From NCBI RefSeq assembly GCF_900111745.1, contig NZ_FOIJ01000001.1:124001-188000 (forward strand): a stretch of DNA of 64,000 bases, given 5' to 3'. Both the position numbers and the translations under genes were made by a program. Origin of the DNA: Stigmatella erecta (GTDB lineage Bacteria; Myxococcota; Myxococcia; Myxococcales; Myxococcaceae). Numbering within the stretch: the first letter of the stretch is position 1; every line of letters starts with the position of its first letter. The notes below the pieces were generated by a model that did no database searches, had not been told where the DNA came from, and saw nothing but the letters and a program-made list of their open reading frames with translations. Shown piece by piece: positions 32,673 through 44,287 of the stretch.

Positions 32673-34673
<2,001 letters not shown>

Positions 34674-36284: not shown

Positions 36285-37484
36285 TCAAGCGACCTTGTTA
36301 CCGGACAGTGATGGTGCGGACGGAACCGGTGTCAGCTCCAGATCGTCGTCATCGGTGAGCCGCTCCAGCTCGGCCTCGGCCTCCTGGGCCCGGACCTCGG
36401 CCTCCAGGGGCTTCAGCTTGCGCTCGGCCATCTCCATCTTGATGCGGACCAGCCCCTCCTCGCCGATGTCGAGGAACGCGCGGACCACCTCGGGATCGAA
36501 CTGCGTGTTGGCGCAGCGTTTGATCTCCTGGATGGCGTTGGCGAACGTGGTGCCCTTGCGGTAGGGCCGGTCGCTCGTCATCGCGTCCAGCGTGTCGGCC
36601 ACCGCGAAGATGCGCGCGCCGACGTGAATCTCGTGCTTCTGGAGGTTGCGCGGGTAGCCCGCGCCGTCCCACCGCTCCTGGTGCGAGAGGACGATCTGCG
36701 CGGGGGTGGAGAGGAAGGGGATGTTCTGGATCATCTGGAAGCCGATGTCCGGATGCTTGCGCATCTCCATCCACTCGTCCGGGGTGAGCTTGCCCGGCTT
36801 GAGCAGCACCGCGTCCGGCACGCCGATCTTCCCGATGTCGTGCAGGAGCGCGCCGCGGCCAATCTCCTCCAGCTCCTTGCCCTGGATGCCCATGATGTTG
36901 GCGATGGCCGAGGTATAGGAGACCACCCGCTGGGAGTGGTCCGACGTCTCGTGCTCGCGCGCATCGAGCGCGGCCACCAGCGCCAGCAGGGTGTTCTGGT
37001 AGGTGTTGGCGATGTCCTTGAAGGCCGTGCGCAACTCGGCGGTCCTGTCGCGCACCTTGCGCTCGAGCTTCTTCTGGTAGCGCTTGCGCGCCAGCTCGAT
37101 GCGGCGCTTGGCCAGCGCGCGCTCGATGGCCCGGATGAGGTCCGTCAGCTTGGGTGGCTTGAGCAGGTAGTCCACCGCGCCCCGGCGCAGACAGTCCACC
37201 GCGGACTCCGTGTCCCCGTAGCCGGTCAGCATGATGACCGAGGTGTCCGGGAGCCGCTCGCGCAGGTTGTCCAGCAGCCAGAGCCCGTCCTTGCCCGGCA
37301 TCTTCATGTCGCTGATGACGAGCGGGGTCTCTGCCTCGCCCGCGACATCCAGCGCCATCTCGGCGCCATTGGCGACGACGCAGTTGTAGCCCTCCTCCGC
37401 GAGAAGGACAGAGATGACGTCGCGGACGGAGTCATCGTCATCGACGATCAAAATTCGGGGCGGGGCAGGAGGAATGGCTTCCAC
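36285..37484 (-). CDS. Response regulator with HD-GYP domain (candidate c-di-GMP phosphodiesterase)
   Basis: A 399-residue protein: receiver domain (about 5-120; phospho-Asp in VISDMKMPGKDG), a helical linker, then an HD-GYP domain (about 165-340) with HDIGKIGVPD and ERWDGAGYP, both signature motifs intact, and an acidic tail. It should hydrolyse cyclic-di-GMP when its receiver is phosphorylated. I chose GTG 37484, just before the receiver, since the sequence further upstream reads as low-complexity non-coding and has no good start; TTG 37523 or ATG 37670 cannot be excluded. The PilZ gene at 14112 is another c-di-GMP-related protein here. Confidence 0.87.
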   Translation of the reverse strand: MEAIPPAPPRILIVDDDDSVRDVISVLLAEEGYNCVVANGAEMALDVAGEAETPLVISDMKMPGKDGLWLLDNLRERLPDTSVIMLTGYGDTESAVDCLRRGAVDYLLKPPKLTDLIRAIERALAKRRIELARKRYQKKLERKVRDRTAELRTAFKDIANTYQNTLLALVAALDAREHETSDHSQRVVSYTSAIANIMGIQGKELEEIGRGALLHDIGKIGVPDAVLLKPGKLTPDEWMEMRKHPDIGFQMIQNIPFLSTPAQIVLSHQERWDGAGYPRNLQKHEIHVGARIFAVADTLDAMTSDRPYRKGTTFANAIQEIKRCANTQFDPEVVRAFLDIGEEGLVRIKMEMAERKLKPLEAEVRAQEAEAELERLTDDDDLELTPVPSAPSLSGNKVA

Positions 37485-37647
37485 GGGAGGGGATTCTAAA
37501 GGTTTCCGGGTTTCGATCGCCAACAGGTAAGGGAAATTACCACCTTCCCTGCCTTCTCGGCTGCTCTCCTTTCTGGGATTGGGGGAACTTTCCCAAGGGA
37601 AGAAAGCTCCCGGACGAGAGCGCTCGGTTGCCCGGATGAGGCAAGGG

Positions 37648-37676
37648 TTGACGGGGGCAGGTGGCTCCATTACTCA
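37648..37676 (+). promoter_or_regulatory. Candidate promoter of the his operon
   Basis: TTGACG (37648-37653), a 17-base spacer and a poor -10 TACTCA (37671-37676). If used, transcription would start close to the GTG of the leader peptide at 37684, leaving almost no untranslated leader. Confidence 0.3.
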
Positions 37677-37683
37677 TAGGAGC

Positions 37684-37776
37684 GTGCGTCTTTTCTTCCG
37701 CCATCATCCCCATGCGCATCATCGGCTCGGCTCCGACGGGACCGTTCGCCGCGCGCATGCTGGGGTGACTGTCTGA
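37684..37776 (+). CDS. Histidine operon leader peptide (attenuator)
   Basis: A 30-codon frame beginning GTG 37684 whose codons 7-13 read His-His-Pro-His-Ala-His-His, five histidines in seven, with another at codon 25. It ends in TGA at 37774-37776, 34 bases before a strong terminator that precedes hisG. Ribosome stalling at these codons when charged tRNA-His is scarce would let transcription continue. An AGGAG directly precedes the GTG with only one base of spacing, so translation may be leaderless or begin at the in-frame ATG 37636. Histidine is a rare residue, and this placement makes chance unlikely. Confidence 0.75.
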   Translation: MRLFFRHHPHAHHRLGSDGTVRRAHAGVTV

Positions 37777-37810
37777 GAAGACCCACTCCTCCGGCCCTGC
37801 CGCAGTGACC

Positions 37811-37841
37811 GAAAGCCCGTCCTCCCTGGACGGGCTTTTTT
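37811..37841 (+). terminator. Intrinsic terminator in the his leader (attenuator terminator)
   Basis: AAGCCCGTCC (37813-37822) pairs perfectly with GGACGGGCTT (37828-37837) across a TCCCT loop, followed by a run of T to 37841. It lies 40 bases before hisG ATG. The 5' arm's CCCGTC can alternatively pair with GACGGG at 37735-37740 inside the leader frame, a six-base candidate antiterminator. Confidence 0.88.
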
Positions 37842-37880
37842 CGTTTCAGCCGCTCCCTCGTCATTCCCCCGGAAGCTCCC

Positions 37881-38738
37881 ATGCTGAAGATCGCTCTTCC
37901 CAACAAAGGCCGTCTCTCCGAAGAGGTCCGTGAGCTGTTCAATGATGCTGGGCTCGAGGTGCGCGTCCGCGGAGAGCGGGCCCTCACCGCCTCGCTGGGT
38001 GGCGAGTTCGAGGCCATTTTCGTCCGGGCCCAGGACATCCCCGAGTTCGTCGCGGATGGGGCCGCCCACGCGGGTGTTACTGGGTGGGATCTCGTCAATG
38101 AGTCCGGGCGCGAGCTGGACCTGTTGATGGACCTGGAGTTCGGCAAATGCCGCCTGGTGGTGGCCGCCCGGGAGGAGAGTGGCCTCACGTCGGTGGAGGG
38201 GGTGAAGGACGGGATGCGCGTGGCCTCGTGTTTCCCCCGGCTGACGCAGGAGTTCTTCCAGCGCCGGGGGCAGCAGGTGACGGTGGTGCCCGTCTCCGGC
38301 GCGGCGGAGATCGCCCCCCACCTGGGCATCGCGGACATCGTTGTGGACCTGACCTCCACGGGCTCCACCCTGAAGATGAACGGCCTGCGCGAGGTGGGCA
38401 CCGTGCTGGAGTCCAGCGCGCGGCTGGTGGCGTGCAAGCGCAATAATGAGGAGGCCGCGCTCCGGCTGGGGGAGCTGAAGCAGGCCCTGGGCTCGGTGCT
38501 GGCCGCCCGGGGCAAGCGCTACTTGATGGCCAACGTGCCGCGCAAGGTGCTGCCCCAGGTGCGAGAGATCCTCCCGGGGCTCAACGGGCCCACCGTCGTG
38601 GACATCATGAACGGTGGGGACTTCGTGGCCGTGCACTCGGTGGTGTCCGCGAAGACCATCTACCGCACCATCAATGGGCTGAAGGCCCTGGGCTGTGAGG
38701 GCATCCTCGTCACCCGCATCGAGAGGCTGATGCCATGA
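37881..38738 (+). CDS. hisG: ATP phosphoribosyltransferase (long form)
   Basis: First, committed step of histidine synthesis: ATP plus PRPP to phosphoribosyl-ATP, feedback-inhibited by histidine. The 285-residue length and the C-terminal domain (about 215-285, with MANVPRKVLPQVREILPGL) mark the long HisG_L form, which does not need HisZ. The PRPP loop is VDLTSTGSTL near 153-162. Family signatures MLKIALPNKGRLSEE and GVTGWD are clear. ATG 37881 follows GGAAGC; the attenuator lies directly upstream. It overlaps hisD by four bases (ATGA). Confidence 0.97.
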   Translation: MLKIALPNKGRLSEEVRELFNDAGLEVRVRGERALTASLGGEFEAIFVRAQDIPEFVADGAAHAGVTGWDLVNESGRELDLLMDLEFGKCRLVVAAREESGLTSVEGVKDGMRVASCFPRLTQEFFQRRGQQVTVVPVSGAAEIAPHLGIADIVVDLTSTGSTLKMNGLREVGTVLESSARLVACKRNNEEAALRLGELKQALGSVLAARGKRYLMANVPRKVLPQVREILPGLNGPTVVDIMNGGDFVAVHSVVSAKTIYRTINGLKALGCEGILVTRIERLMP

Positions 38739-40036
38739 GCGGGGGAACACTGAAGTACCGGGGCGCGCTCTCGGCCCTGGCCCCCGAGGCCCGGCGCCGC
38801 CTGCTTGACCGCACGGGGACGTCGGATTCGCAGGTGGCCCAGAGGACCCGGGAGCTGATTGCCCGGGTGCGCCAGGACGGGGACGCCGCGCTGCGGGAGA
38901 TGGCGCTCCAGTTCGACCGGGTCCAGCTCTCTGCGGTGGAAGTCCCCCGGGCGCGGTGGGAGGAGGCCCTGGCCTCGCTGGAGCCGAAGGTCCGGAGTGC
39001 CCTGGAGCGGGCCGCCCGCAACATCGCCACGGCGCATGCGGCCCAGAAGCCCCAGGCCATCGAGGTGGAGACGGAGCCGGGCATCGTCGTGGGCCGGAGG
39101 CCGGATCCGCTCGGGCGGGTGGGGGTCTACGCGCCGGGAGGCCGGGCCGTGTATCCCAGCAGCGTGCTGATGGGGGTGGTGCCGGCGAAGGTGGCCGGGG
39201 TGGGGGAGATCATCGTCTGTTCGCCCCCCGGGCCGGACGGGTTGCCCGCGGCCGGGGTGCTGGCGGCGGCGCTGCTGGCAGGCGCGGACCGGGTGTTCGC
39301 CCTGGGCGGCGCGGGGGCGGTGGCCGCCATGGCCTACGGGACTCAGAGCGTGCCCCGGGTGGACCGCATCGTGGGGCCCGGCAATGCGTATGTCGCCGCC
39401 GCCAAGCTCCAGGTGGTGGACGCGGTGGCCATCGACGCGCCCGCCGGGCCCAGTGAAATCCTGGTCGTCGCGGATGGCTCGGCGGATCCCGAGGCGATTG
39501 CCCGCGAGATGCTGGCCCAGGCCGAGCACGATCCGGACGCCTGTTGCGTGACGCTGGCAGTGGGGGAGGCTCAGGCCGAGGCGGTGGCCCAGGCCGTCGA
39601 GCGGGCGGCGGCCCGGGCGCGGCGGCAGGAGATTGTCTCCACCTCCTTGAAGGAGCGGGGGGCCGTGCTGAGCGTGGGCTCCCTGGAAGAGGCGTGGCCT
39701 TTCGTGTCCGACTTCGCGCCCGAGCACCTGCTGCTCGCCACCGCGGCCCCCCAGGAGCACCTGGGCCGGGTTCGGCACTGTGGCACCGTCTTCCTCGGCG
39801 AGCGCGCCTCCGTGGCCTTCGGGGACTACATGACGGGGGCCAACCATGTGCTGCCCACCGCGGGGCTGGGGCATGCCTACTCGGGCCTGTCCGTGCTCGA
39901 CTTCTACCGGTGGACCGCCTGGCAACGGGTGGATCGCGAGGCGGCGGCGCGGCTCGCGGAGGATGTGGGGACGCTCGCCGACAGTGAGGGGCTCTTCGCC
40001 CACGCGGAGGCCGCCCGGGCCTGGAGGAACGCGTGA
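38735..40036 (+). CDS. hisD: Histidinol dehydrogenase
   Basis: Zinc enzyme performing the last two oxidations from histidinol to histidine with NAD+. The 433-residue protein has all landmarks: GRVGVYAPGGRAVYPSS, DRIVGPGNAYV, DAPAGPSEILV and, late in the chain, DFAPEHL and GANHVLPT. The His and Glu zinc ligands are in HDPDAC and GEYMTG-type positions (here AEHDPDACC and FGDYMTGANH). ATG 38735 lies four bases inside hisG. Stop TGA 40034-40036 shares its last base with hisC ATG. Confidence 0.97.
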   Translation: MSGGTLKYRGALSALAPEARRRLLDRTGTSDSQVAQRTRELIARVRQDGDAALREMALQFDRVQLSAVEVPRARWEEALASLEPKVRSALERAARNIATAHAAQKPQAIEVETEPGIVVGRRPDPLGRVGVYAPGGRAVYPSSVLMGVVPAKVAGVGEIIVCSPPGPDGLPAAGVLAAALLAGADRVFALGGAGAVAAMAYGTQSVPRVDRIVGPGNAYVAAAKLQVVDAVAIDAPAGPSEILVVADGSADPEAIAREMLAQAEHDPDACCVTLAVGEAQAEAVAQAVERAAARARRQEIVSTSLKERGAVLSVGSLEEAWPFVSDFAPEHLLLATAAPQEHLGRVRHCGTVFLGERASVAFGDYMTGANHVLPTAGLGHAYSGLSVLDFYRWTAWQRVDREAAARLAEDVGTLADSEGLFAHAEAARAWRNA

Positions 40037-41070
40037 TGCGCACCCGTCCGTCCTATCGAGACATCTCGCTCTACTCCCCGCCCACCGTGGCATGCCGGGT
40101 GGACCTGAGCGACAACACCAACCTCTTCGGCGTCCCCCCGGCCGCCGAGCGGGTGCTGCGGGAGGCCGCGCCCTCGCTCATCACCCGCTATCCCGTCAGC
40201 TATGCGCCGGACCTCAAGCACGCCCTCTCGGGCTACACGGGCTTCGAGCCCTCGTGGCTGACCACGGGCTGTGGCTCGGATGACCTCATCGACTGCGCCC
40301 TGCGCGCCTTCCTGGAGCCAGGAGAGCGCATCGCCGTGCCGGACCCGTCCTTCTCGATGATGTCCTACTTCGCCCGGGTGAACGGCCTGGAGTTCTCCCC
40401 GGTCCCGCTGCGGCCGGATTGGGACATCGATGTGGACGCGATGCTCGCCACCGGCGCGCGCCTGCTCTACGTCTGCTCGCCCAACAACCCCACCAGCACG
40501 GTGGCCTCCCGCGCCGCCCTGGAGCGGCTGGTGGACGCGGCGCCCGGCCTCGTCCTCCTGGACGAGGCCTACACGGAGTTCTCCAACGGCAGCCACGTGG
40601 ACCTGGTCCGCTCGCGGCCCAATGTCCTCGTCACGCGGACGCTGTCCAAGGCCTTTGGCCTGGCGGGCATGCGCGTGGGCTATGCCATCGGCCGCCCCGA
40701 ACTGGTGGCCGAGGTGGAGAAGGCCCGTGGCCCCTACAAGCACAACGGCATCTCCGAGCGCATGGCCATCGCCGCCCTCACCGAGGATCTGCCCTGGGTG
40801 AAGGCGCGGGCGGAGGAGGTGCGCACCCTCCGGCAGCGGCTGGTGACGGCGCTGGAGGGCATGGGCCTGAAGCCCCTGCCCACCGAGGCCAACTTCGTCT
40901 TCGTCCCGTTCCCGGGAGCCCCCCAGGTGGCCGCCCGCATGCGGGAGCGCGGTGTGAACATCCGGGCGTTCCAGGGGCTCACCGGCATCGGGGATGCGTT
41001 CCGGATCGGTTGCGGCCCCTGGCCACTGATGGATGCGGCGCTTGAGGCGCTGCGGGAGGCATGGCGATGA
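40036..41070 (+). CDS. hisC: Histidinol-phosphate aminotransferase
   Basis: PLP enzyme transferring the amino group of glutamate to imidazole acetol phosphate. The 344-residue fold type I protein has DNTNLFG near the start, the PLP-binding GCGSDDLID, the Asn in CSPNNPTS, the Asp of LDEAYTEF and the Schiff-base Lys in TRTLSKAFGLAG. Starts at ATG 40036, the A of which is the last base of the hisD stop; GTG 40033 is a possible extra codon. It ends with a four-base overlap on hisH. Confidence 0.96.
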   Translation: MRTRPSYRDISLYSPPTVACRVDLSDNTNLFGVPPAAERVLREAAPSLITRYPVSYAPDLKHALSGYTGFEPSWLTTGCGSDDLIDCALRAFLEPGERIAVPDPSFSMMSYFARVNGLEFSPVPLRPDWDIDVDAMLATGARLLYVCSPNNPTSTVASRAALERLVDAAPGLVLLDEAYTEFSNGSHVDLVRSRPNVLVTRTLSKAFGLAGMRVGYAIGRPELVAEVEKARGPYKHNGISERMAIAALTEDLPWVKARAEEVRTLRQRLVTALEGMGLKPLPTEANFVFVPFPGAPQVAARMRERGVNIRAFQGLTGIGDAFRIGCGPWPLMDAALEALREAWR

Positions 41071-41660
41071 GAGTCACCCTGTTCGACTACGGCGCGGGGA
41101 ACATCCACTCCCTCGCCAAGGCCCTGGCCACGGCCCCGGGCGCGGAGGTGCGTGTGGAGACGGATCCCCTGAAGGCGCTGGAGACGGAGGTGCTCGTCCT
41201 TCCGGGCGTGGGGGCCTTCGGCTCCGCGGCGGCGCGGCTCGCGCCGGGCCGGGAGCCGATGCGCCAGGCGCTGGAGCAGGGCCTGCCGTGTCTGGGCATC
41301 TGCCTGGGCATGCAGCTGCTCTTCGAGGGCAGTGACGAGGGCGAGGGCCAGGGGCTCGGCCTCTTCCGGGGCCGGGTGACGCGGCTGCGCGCCCAGCAGG
41401 TGCCCCACATCGGCTGGAACACCGTGGAGGAGGATGCTGCGGTGAAGGGGACGAAGCTGGACTCGGTCTATTACGCGCACAGCTTCGCCTGCCGGGCCGG
41501 GGAGTCCGGCGTGGTGTCCGGCTGGACGACGCACGAGGAGGACCGCTTCCCGGCCTCGGTGCGGCGGGGAAAGGTGCTCGGGGTGCAGTTCCATCCCGAG
41601 AAGAGCTCGTCGGCCGGGGTGGGATTCCTGCAGGCTTTTCTGAAGGACGTGACGTCATGA
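41067..41660 (+). CDS. hisH: Imidazole glycerol phosphate synthase, glutaminase subunit
   Basis: Class I amidotransferase subunit releasing ammonia from glutamine for HisF. The 197-residue protein has the nucleophile Cys in CLGICLGMQLL and the His-Glu pair in VQFHPEKS, plus the HisH-specific LFDYGAGNIHSLAKAL at the start. ATG 41067 overlaps the hisC stop (ATGA); ATG 41061 two codons earlier is also in frame. Overlaps hisA by four bases. Confidence 0.96.
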   Translation: MRVTLFDYGAGNIHSLAKALATAPGAEVRVETDPLKALETEVLVLPGVGAFGSAAARLAPGREPMRQALEQGLPCLGICLGMQLLFEGSDEGEGQGLGLFRGRVTRLRAQQVPHIGWNTVEEDAAVKGTKLDSVYYAHSFACRAGESGVVSGWTTHEEDRFPASVRRGKVLGVQFHPEKSSSAGVGFLQAFLKDVTS

Positions 41661-42370
41661 TCGCCATTCCCGCCATTGATTTGAGAGAGGGCGCCTGCGT
41701 GCAGCTCGTGGGCGGCTCGTACGACGCCGAGCGCGTGCGGGTGAATGATCCGCTCGATGCGCTGAAGAAGTGGCGCGGCCTCGGCTTCCGGACGTTCCAC
41801 GTGGTGGACCTGGACGCCGCGCTGGGCAAGGGCTCCAACCTGGAGGTCATCGCCCGGCTGCTCTCCCACGAGCCGGGGCTCACCTTCACGGTGGGCGGCG
41901 GCGTGCGGGAGGCCGAGAGGGTGGAGGCGGTGCTCGCCTCCGGCGCCGCGTTCGCCGTGGTGGGCACGCGGGCCATCGAGGACACCGCGTGGCTGGCGGA
42001 GGTGGCGGGGCGCTTCCCGGGCCGGTTGGTGGTGGCCGCGGACGTGAAGGGCCGCGAGGTGGTGACGCGCGGCTGGACGGCGGGCAGTGCGCGGGACGTG
42101 AAGGACGTGCTCGCGGCGCTGGACCCGCTGCCCCTGGGCGGCCTGCTGGTGACGGCGGTTCACAAGGAGGGGCAGATGGGCGGGGTGGATCTGCCGCTGA
42201 TGCAGGAGGTGGTCCAGGGCAGCCGCCACCGGGTGTATGCCTCGGGAGGCGTGACGACGCGGGAGGATCTCCGGGCCCTGGCGGCCGCGGGGGCTTACGG
42301 GGCCGTCATTGGCATGGCCCTCTACACGGGGAAGCTCGACGCGGCCTCGGTCGCACGGGAGTTCGCATGA
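41657..42370 (+). CDS. hisA: ProFAR isomerase (HisA)
   Basis: Amadori isomerase acting on ProFAR to give PRFAR. The 237-residue (beta-alpha)8 barrel begins [15 protein letters not shown], containing the catalytic Asp8, and carries the second half-barrel phosphate site in [12 protein letters not shown]. The internal duplicate of the half barrel is visible as VGGGVRE and ASGGVTT. ATGA overlaps with hisH and hisB. HisA and HisF here are separate proteins, as usual. Confidence 0.96.
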
Positions 42371-42903
42371 CGATCGTGACTCGGGAGACGAAGGAGACGC
42401 AGATCCGCATCGAGCTGGCGCGGGGCAAGGGCGTGGCCCAGGTGGACACGGGCCTGAAGTTCTTCGACCACATGCTGGGGACCTTCGCGCGCTACGCCGG
42501 GCTGGACCTGACGCTCCACGCGCGGGGGGATTTGCGCCACCACATCATGGAGGACGTGGCCATCACCCTGGGCACGGCGGTGTACCAGGTCATCCCGCCC
42601 ACGGCCGCGCGCTATGGCGAGCGCACGCTGCCCATGGACGACGCGCTGGTGCAGGCGGTCATCGACACCTGCGGGCGCTTCTATTACCGCGGGCCACTGC
42701 GCAACCGGCTGTACGAGCACTGGATGCGCTCGTTCTGCGAGCACGCGAAGGTGACGCTCCACCTGCGCATCCTCCGGGGCAAGGACAGCCACCACCTCAC
42801 CGAGGCGGCCTTCAAGGCGCTGGGCCTGGCGCTCCGCGATGCCATGGTGGACTCGGGCACCGTCTTCAGCACCAAGGGCACCGTCGCCCTGGAGGTGAAG
42901 TGA
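42367..42903 (+). CDS. hisB: Imidazoleglycerol-phosphate dehydratase
   Basis: Manganese enzyme converting IGP to imidazole acetol phosphate. Monofunctional, 178 residues, a little shorter than the common 190-200, with no histidinol-phosphatase domain, so that activity must be encoded elsewhere. The two metal-binding repeats are HHIMED and [14 protein letters not shown]-type motif appears as [11 protein letters not shown] 42367 overlaps the hisA stop. Its position between hisA and hisF is unlike the common G-D-C-B-H-A-F-I order. Confidence 0.95.
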
Positions 42904-43664
42904 TGCTGGCGCGGCGGCTGATCGTCTGCCTGGACATGAAGGGCGGCCGGGTGGTGAAGGGCGTCCAGTTCGAGGGGCTGCGGGACGTGGGAGACCCGGT
43001 GTCGCTGGCCATGCGCTACGAGGCGGAAGGGGCCGACGAGGTGACGTTCCTCGACATCTCCGCCAGCGCCGAGGAGCGCGAGACGCTGTGGGACGTCGTC
43101 CAGCGCACCTCCGAGCGGCTCTTCATTCCCCTGACCGTGGGCGGCGGCGTGCGCACGGCGGACGACGTGGGCCGGGCGCTCCGGGCGGGGGCGGACAAGG
43201 TGAGCATCAACTCGGCGGCGGTGGCGAACCCGGAGCTGCTCACGGCGTGCGCGGAGCGCTTCGGCGCCCAGTGCGTGGTGGCCAGCATCGATGCGCGGCG
43301 CGAGGAGGGCCGGTGGCGCGTCTACACCCGGGGGGGCCGGACGCCCACGGGCCTGGACGCGGTGGAGTGGGCCCGCGAGTGCGTGAGGAGGGGCGCGGGC
43401 GAGGTGCTGCTCACGAGCATCGACCGGGATGGGGCCCGCACGGGGTACGACCTGGAGCTGACGCGGGCCGTGGCCGAGGCGGTGGCCGTGCCCGTCATCG
43501 CCTCCGGGGGGGCGGGGAATGCCCAGCACGTGCGCGAGGCGCTCACGGACGGCAAGGCGGACGCGGCGCTGGTGGCGGGCATCCTCCACGATGGCCTCAC
43601 CACCGTGGGCGCCCTCAAGACACTGCTTCAGGACAGCGGCCTCCGGGTCAGGAGCCAGGCGTGA
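42903..43664 (+). CDS. hisF: Imidazole glycerol phosphate synthase, cyclase subunit
   Basis: Cyclase that turns PRFAR plus ammonia (channelled from HisH) into IGP and AICAR. The 253-residue barrel starts with [18 protein letters not shown], holding the first catalytic Asp, and has the second in [21 protein letters not shown] and ASGGAGN bind phosphate. Starts ATG 42903, sharing its A with the hisB stop. Confidence 0.97.
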
Positions 43665-44287
43665 TGTTGGATCTCTCCCAGCTGGATTTCACCAAGGGCA
43701 ATGGGCTCGTCACCGTGGTGACGCAGGATGCGCGCAGCGGCGATGTGCTGATGGTGGCGCACGCGGACCGCGAAGCGCTGGAGCGGACGCTGGCCACGGG
43801 CGAGATGCACTACCGCTCGCGCACGCGGGGCCTGTGGCACAAGGGCGCCACGAGCGGCAACGTGCAGCGGGTCGTCTCCCTGTCGGCCGACTGTGATGGG
43901 GATGCGGTGCTGGCGCGGGTGGAGAAGGCGGGCCCCGCGTGCCATACGGGCGAGGAGACCTGCTTTGGCCCGGGCAAGCTGGATGCGCTGGTGGCCCTGG
44001 ATGCGACCATCTCCGAGCGCGCCGCCCAGGCCCCCCCTGCCGGGGAGAAGCCCAGCTACACGCGAAAACTGCTGGACGACCGCAACCTCCGGCTGAAGAA
44101 GATTGGCGAGGAGGGCGCGGAGCTGGTGACGGCCTGCGCGGACGGGGACCGGGGCCGGGCCGTGGAGGAGGCCGCCGACGTGCTCTACCACCTGCTGGTG
44201 GCGGTGCGGCCCCTGGGCATCCAGCTGGAGGACGTGAAGCAAGTCCTGGCCCAGCGGGCTGGGAAGCCTGCCCCGCGGCCGGGGTAG
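43664..44287 (+). CDS. hisIE: Bifunctional PR-AMP cyclohydrolase / PR-ATP pyrophosphohydrolase
   Basis: Catalyses steps two and three of the pathway. The 207-residue fusion has an N-terminal HisI domain (1-105) with MHYRSRTRGLWHKGATSGN and the zinc cysteines in DCDGDAV and HTGEETCF, then a HisE domain (about 118-205) with KKIGEEGAEL and the acidic EEAADVLYHLLV. The HisI-HisE junction carries a short Ala/Pro linker. Last gene of the operon, followed by the hairpin cluster at 44304-44442. Confidence 0.96.
   Translation: MLDLSQLDFTKGNGLVTVVTQDARSGDVLMVAHADREALERTLATGEMHYRSRTRGLWHKGATSGNVQRVVSLSADCDGDAVLARVEKAGPACHTGEETCFGPGKLDALVALDATISERAAQAPPAGEKPSYTRKLLDDRNLRLKKIGEEGAELVTACADGDRGRAVEEAADVLYHLLVAVRPLGIQLEDVKQVLAQRAGKPAPRPG

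Follow-up and report, generated by a model that had tools for sequence, protein, structure and literature searches.

The his operon of Stigmatella erecta is preceded by a leader with the anatomy of a his attenuator: its His codons are clustered immediately before the operon, and an intrinsic terminator separates it from the first gene. The arrangement is common to several phyla, and its function can be predicted. Sequence and folding together make it very probable that the element controls the his operon by ribosome-mediated transcription attenuation, and the leader is probably translated from a leaderless mRNA. Positions below are those of the window, i.e., the whole stretch of 64,000 nucleotides that was analyzed.

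The leader peptide frame (37684-37776, plus strand) consists of a GTG start, 30 codons in all and a TGA stop, and its product would be VRLFFRHHPHAHHRLGSDGTVRRAHAGVTV. The putative regulatory codons, HHPHAHH (37702-37722, plus strand), place five His within seven codons. In the 9.2-Mb genome, with both strands counted, the codon pattern HHxHxHH turns up only 18 times, so its occurrence by chance within the roughly 200 bases ahead of hisG is unlikely. The frame is followed by the intrinsic terminator (37811-37841, plus strand), a stem of 12 pairs (37811-37839) with a T-run to 37841, and then by hisG (37881-38738, plus strand), which begins with ATG at 37881 and encodes, as judged by Pfam domains, the long form of the enzyme with a HisG_C domain. 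The remainder of the operon (38735-44287, plus strand) comprises hisD, an aminotransferase gene (hisC), an amidotransferase gene (hisH), hisA, hisB, hisF, and hisIE. These letters were assigned by Pfam domains and gene order, the domains in the operon being HisG/HisG_C, histidinol dehydrogenase, aminotransferase, amidotransferase, two His_biosynth domains (of HisA/HisF type), IGP dehydratase, and PRA-CH/PRA-PH. Re-reading of the sequence bore out the coordinates that the initial annotation had given. RNA from 37678 to 37846 folds far better than 200 shuffled versions of itself (z = -5.4).

The leader is conserved throughout the family to which S. erecta belongs, the Myxococcaceae. A search for HisG was positive (E <= 1e-30) in 72 of 96 genomes of the family, and the DNA upstream of hisG was read in all 72. 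A His-rich frame was found in 71 (L001-L070 and L136), with five to seven His codons among the nine counted from the first His, and a compact terminator was found in 68 of the 71. The one positive genome with no His-rich frame, G049 (locus L135), has a HisG only 37% identical to that of the window, and the leader is likewise absent from G085 (L123), another genome of the family whose HisG is divergent. Three deep-branching loci (L065, L067, and L069) retain the leader and a long antiterminator, and their terminator region is long-looped, with GGGCCC arms. Records bearing the element include Myxococcus xanthus, Corallococcus, Pyxidicoccus, Archangium, and Hyalangium, and these named records overlap the 71, many being identical contigs. 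For several of the tests described below, the 71 leaders were thinned to 25 representatives with less than 90% identity. A comparison of hisG upstream regions had been proposed as the check on the interpretation of the locus as a his attenuator, with loss of the His codons and the terminator from relatives that keep hisG as the outcome that would speak against it. That outcome did not occur in the family, and the interpretation is strengthened by the retention of both parts.

Two observations were made in passing. A contig titled Comamonas sp. KCTC 72670 (L151, BNCN01000004.1) carries a Myxococcus-like hisG, 87% identical to that of the window, together with the leader; the title is probably a mislabel. 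Also, 16 genomes of the family that are at least 90% complete by their stated figure, some of them large, gave no match to HisG (E <= 1e-15): G008, G010, G012, G021, G043, G044, G046, G048, G050, G051, G052, G086, G087, G090, G091, and G092. These may represent histidine auxotrophs or perhaps gaps in draft assemblies.

A box resembling a -35 element, TTGACG, lies at 37648-37653 (plus strand), and in most relatives TTGAC keeps a constant distance to the leader start. A second box, TACTCAT (37671-37677, plus strand), begins after a spacer of 17 nt and is off the -10 consensus; it would place the start of the transcript at or next to 37684. A pattern scan detected no sigma-70 promoter, but the placement of TTGACG, the 17-nt spacer, and TACTCAT matches that in relatives. 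The leader start, GTG or ATG in the family, lies 29-32 nt past the -35 box in 67 of 71 loci (25 nt in one, with three lacking the box), and a strict TAnnnT is missing from the -10 place in 70 of the 71. Of 49 loci from other phyla, discussed below, 46 have a TAnnnT that ends 5-12 nt ahead of the leader start, and in 40 the -35 box lies 28-34 nt from the start. With spacing so fixed, a normal promoter would start transcription at the start codon or a few bases from it, and it is this spacing that leads us to place the transcript start there and to regard the leader mRNA as probably leaderless. The suspicion of a leaderless start in the initial annotation thus gains support, as a prediction, from the constant distance between box and start codon. 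A Shine-Dalgarno core precedes the leader start in only 2 of 71 family loci and 1 of 49 loci from other phyla, but this is weak evidence for a leaderless start, since hisG starts also rarely have one (8 of 71 family loci). The AGGAG adjoining GTG in the window is not retained in most relatives. The best-supported gene upstream of the leader is a divergent neighbor (36285-37670, minus strand) that encodes a response regulator with an HD domain. As listed, this gene begins at 37670 and so runs into the his promoter; the start was probably set too far upstream.

There is precedent for an attenuator RNA of this kind. The trpL attenuator RNA of Sinorhizobium meliloti is reported to begin with the ATG of the leader ORF, and the leader mRNA may be leaderless (PMC7298713). 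That system is alphaproteobacterial and senses tryptophan, and the transcript start in the present case is only predicted. The same source describes products of trpL, rnTrpL and peTrpL, as a precedent for action in trans (PMC7298713), and one might therefore ask if the terminated his leader RNA or its peptide also acts in trans, besides attenuation in cis. The his leader RNA is likewise predicted to be leaderless and terminated, but the peptide beyond the His run differs between phyla, and we consider an additional function of this sort unlikely.

An attenuator requires helices that exclude one another. The initial annotation had noted that GACGGG (37735-37740) can pair with CCCGUC (37816-37821) as a six-base antiterminator. 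The six bases can indeed pair, but they are only the core of a helix of roughly 17 bp, in which strand 2 (37735-37756, plus strand), lying within the reading frame, and strand 3 (37799-37821, plus strand), with the sequence GCCGCAGUGACCGAAAGCCCGUC, pair in the window in segments of 6, 2, 4, and 5 bp. Strand 3 overlaps the 5' arm of the terminator, which is formed by strands 3 and 4, and its pairing with strand 2 explains the conserved GCCGCAGUGACCGAA ahead of the terminator. The assignment of strand 2 is based on pairing, on folding with masked positions, and on exchange of arms between loci. In minimum free energy folds, strand 2 is hidden by a long hairpin whose 5' arm is strand 1 (37684-37717, plus strand), i.e., the start region and His codons, and whose 3' arm lies at 37753-37786 (plus strand). 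The same folds contain an inner hairpin (37723-37751, plus strand), whose loop and 3' arm contain the core GACGGG; covariation of the corresponding hairpin in the cross-phylum alignment is mixed.

Covariation of the antiterminator was tested by exchanging its arms between loci, a procedure in which permutation does not fully remove the effect of relatedness. With the 25 representatives of the family, only 1 of 20,000 permutations was as favorable as the native pairing, and 7 of the 25, the window's own leader included, pair worse than the median of their swaps when whole arms are considered. With 68 sequences from within and outside the family, none of 20,000 permutations matched the native pairing (L195 was left out of this set, and the arms of L185 and L187 were badly set). 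The arms were chosen anew for a test in which the core was removed. Here, 25 representatives less than 60% identical to one another, six of them from the family, gave -20.4 kcal/mol for native arms versus -17.3 kcal/mol for swapped arms, again unmatched in 20,000 permutations. Native arms without the core were better than the mean of their shuffles in 67 of 69 sequences and better than the reversed flank in 57 of 69, but in only 14 of 69 did they outdo every one of their 20 shuffles. A column-wise count of antiterminator pairs outside the core was tried as well and proved uninformative because bulges vary among sequences; the swap test was used in its place. For the hairpin that hides strand 2, support from covariation in the cross-phylum alignment is mixed: 83.0% of cells are paired versus 78.3% in shuffled alignments (a value reached in 0 of 500 shuffles), and there are 3 pairs with double changes versus 2.2 (reached in 156 of 500). 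RNAalifold, run on the cross-phylum alignment, found nothing besides the terminator. Five loci (L186, L204, L209, L211, and L221) lie outside the structure set, as the end of their terminator was not found by the script, and alignment A2 was deliberately built without L014, L065, and L067.

The predicted behavior of the switch was examined by folding transcripts that end after the 5' arm of the terminator, the ribosome being imitated by forbidding pairs under its footprint. The mean pairing of the core over the 71 family leaders was 0.13 when the RNA was free, 0.89 when the ribosome was stalled on the His codons, and 0.15 when it stood at the stop codon. Individually, pairing of the core was below 0.2 in 59 of the 71 free RNAs, above 0.8 in 64 when stalled on His codons, and above 0.8 in just 6 at the stop codon. 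Shuffling the spacer between strands 2 and 3 in the 25 representatives reduced the mean pairing of the stalled state from 17.8 to 10.2 bp. In three leaders (L008, L012, and L070), the antiterminator is already formed in the free RNA. As a control, the leader of E. coli hisL was treated in the same way, by a measure slightly different from that used for the family: the 5' arm of its terminator was paired upstream at 0.08 when free, 0.27-0.55 when stalled, and 0.08 at the stop codon, a shift in the same direction but smaller. In the 49 loci from other phyla, the stalled state reached at least 12 bp in 46, the free state fell below 3 bp in only 22, and the stalled state exceeded the free state by at least 8 bp in 23. 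An antiterminator that excludes the terminator and is freed when the His codons are covered is therefore found in the family (64 of 71) but only partly in the other phyla.

The mechanism that these features suggest would proceed as follows. RNA polymerase would start at or next to the GTG at 37684. When charged tRNA-His is ample, a ribosome would pass the His codons and then leave, so that the 3' portion of the frame could pair with the region of the start and His codons. With strand 2 thereby hidden, transcription would end at the terminator (37811-37841) before hisG is reached. Under a shortage of charged tRNA-His, the ribosome would stall on HHPHAHH and cover strand 1, so that strand 2 could pair with strand 3 before the 3' arm of the terminator is made, and the genes from hisG to hisIE would be transcribed. 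The start of transcription, translation of the frame, stalling, the efficiency of termination, and the response to histidine are thus all predictions of the model. When complete transcripts are folded, the terminator prevails at equilibrium even under a stalled ribosome (mean P 0.98; only L065, L067, and L069 give low values), so antitermination must be kinetic, decided by the order of synthesis, as it usually is in attenuators.

The same result might be taken to mean that the terminator acts constitutively, as an insulator or a weak stop, with the His frame incidental, the RNA structure kept, and histidine not sensed, and it fits this idea that roughly half of the loci from other phyla lack a clean equilibrium switch. 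However, since the best-supported upstream gene is divergent, the terminator hardly serves an upstream gene. Moreover, at least five His among nine codons are found in all 71 family leaders and at least four in all 49 others, with strand 2 immediately after them, and the alternative helix covaries, which would be useless to an insulator. It is very unlikely, then, that the terminator works in this way.

Past the His run, conservation, as judged from sequence comparison, lies in the RNA and not in the peptide. In 70 of the 71 family leaders the core CGGG falls in one reading phase, mostly as Asp-Gly (GAC GGG), whereas 46 of the 49 leaders from other phyla have it in another, mostly as Thr-Gly (ACG GG.). 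The single exception within the family, L062, from a draft genome, has lost one base after the His run, shifting the frame and leaving the RNA strands in place. It may be proposed that the product is a functional His-rich micropeptide, e.g., one that binds metal, with the RNA structure secondary, and a similar peptide is indeed found across the whole family. This proposal is most improbable in the face of the difference in phase and the displaced frame of L062, and because the length of the peptide and the residues ahead of the His run vary.

The leader is not confined to myxobacteria. Of 148 named loci found for the HisG of the window, 80 were kept, and 50 of these belong by label to other phyla: 42 to Gemmatimonadota, 5 to Candidatus Eisenbacteria, 1 to a Kuenenia bin (probably misbinned), and 2 to others. 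All but one (L202, with only 20 upstream bases) could be evaluated, and a His-rich leader with at least four His among nine codons precedes hisG in each of the 49, a compact terminator being present in 45; a few of these loci share metagenome bins, so not all are independent. The element that the initial annotation described for a myxobacterium thus also stands ahead of hisG in Gemmatimonadota and Ca. Eisenbacteria. The gene hisD lies directly behind hisG in all 80 named loci. The HisG of the window is 65-75% identical to those of the 50 loci from other phyla and 31-42% identical to 16 HisGs of other type with which it was compared (some by partial alignments, and including G049 and G085 of the family). 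In a tree of HisG sequences, those of Myxococcaceae, Gemmatimonadota, and Eisenbacteria fall together. Five other Myxococcota HisGs were included: four of them stay outside this group, and the remaining one, G049, is on a very long branch. The deep branches and the order within the shared group are poorly resolved, and the tree does not decide the direction of transfer. The simplest reading of these sequences is that the his operon has been transferred horizontally across phyla.

Within Myxococcota, the leader appears to be restricted to the family. A covariance model of the leader (R1), built on 52 sequences, 16 of them from the family, was scanned against 193 Myxococcota genomes: 70 had matches of at least 42 bits, every one of these genomes belongs to the family, and no strong match came from outside it. 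At E <= 0.001, some match was found in 103 of the 193. Two of the weak matches were inspected, one outside the family (G118) and one a second match inside it (G055), and both proved to be terminator-like stretches with no His leader. The leader was also not seen in 37 regions upstream of hisG in Myxococcota outside the family. These represent 37 of 38 HisG-positive genomes (G119 and the second HisG of G127 were left out, and L126 offered only 376 bases), and, as hisG need not be the first gene in other Myxococcota, regions with no His frame are not negative for attenuation. Leader-like clusters of His codons occur in just three of the 37 regions, L120, L127, and L131 (families f10, f24, and f11, respectively), and weaker clusters (4 of 7) lie inside long frames in L110 and L119. 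The short His-rich frames of the three regions, MFGTLQHHRHHHP, MKQQFQHHLHHHGLWVG, and MNSCVHHHHHHHQTRGVG, respectively, are accompanied by hairpins and stand ahead of a hisG of distant type. They resemble the window in the placement of the frame ahead of hisG (genomes G098, G144, and G159 for L131, L120, and L127), and the scan found a terminator in L120 and L127 but none in L131. By eye, however, the leaders are unlike that of the window, and their HisGs, 31-34% identical to its HisG, belong to a distant group. They look like his leaders that evolved separately.

Leader-peptide attenuation of his operons is textbook knowledge for enteric bacteria, and attenuators of proteobacteria were reportedly surveyed by Vitreschak et al. 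in 2004. The enterobacterial hisL leader (RF00514) has, as here, a run of His codons, a terminator ahead of hisG, and an antiterminator that competes with the terminator. It differs from the present element, in which the reading frame includes strand 2 and the start codon stands at the predicted start of the transcript, and which occurs in Myxococcaceae, Gemmatimonadota, and Ca. Eisenbacteria. RF00514 gave no match in the window or in 92 family genomes, the E. coli control being positive. At the gathering threshold, no Rfam family, T-box models included, matched the leader of the window or 20 related loci, and the 11 matches in the leader at a permissive threshold were all below the gathering score, several of them resting on the terminator. 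Given the presence of a His-codon frame and the lack of any such match, the chance that the operon is under the control of a T-box or another ligand-binding RNA is negligible, even though structured RNA does lie ahead of an amino-acid operon.

In Firmicutes, his leaders with a His-rich peptide, a terminator, and an antiterminator have been proposed by comparison of upstream regions (PMC9413887). These have the same parts as the leader described here, a likeness drawn from their description rather than from sequence, and belong to a different phylum. A literature search at the level of titles and abstracts, with subscription journals mostly outside its scope, found no description of the present element, the sources considered including PMC9413887 and PMC2965389.

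One might go further and suppose that all these leaders form one homologous family of attenuator RNA, absent from Rfam, which moved between phyla with hisGD and depends on leaderless initiation. In this full form, the idea is doubtful. If it were true, the his operon would read not only charged tRNA-His but also the capacity of the cell to start translation on leaderless messages. A conserved and probably leaderless form in Myxococcaceae, Gemmatimonadota, and Ca. Eisenbacteria would constitute a distinct lineage of attenuators, a new Rfam family, and a regulatory RNA that travels with its operon between phyla. The leader stands ahead of hisG in a record of Myxococcus xanthus (L154), a tractable model in which the mechanism and the role of leaderless initiation are directly testable.

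Elsewhere in the window, at 32680-32788, is an ordinary TPP riboswitch (RF00059, 88 bits), and the frame behind it is one that we take to be thiC-like.
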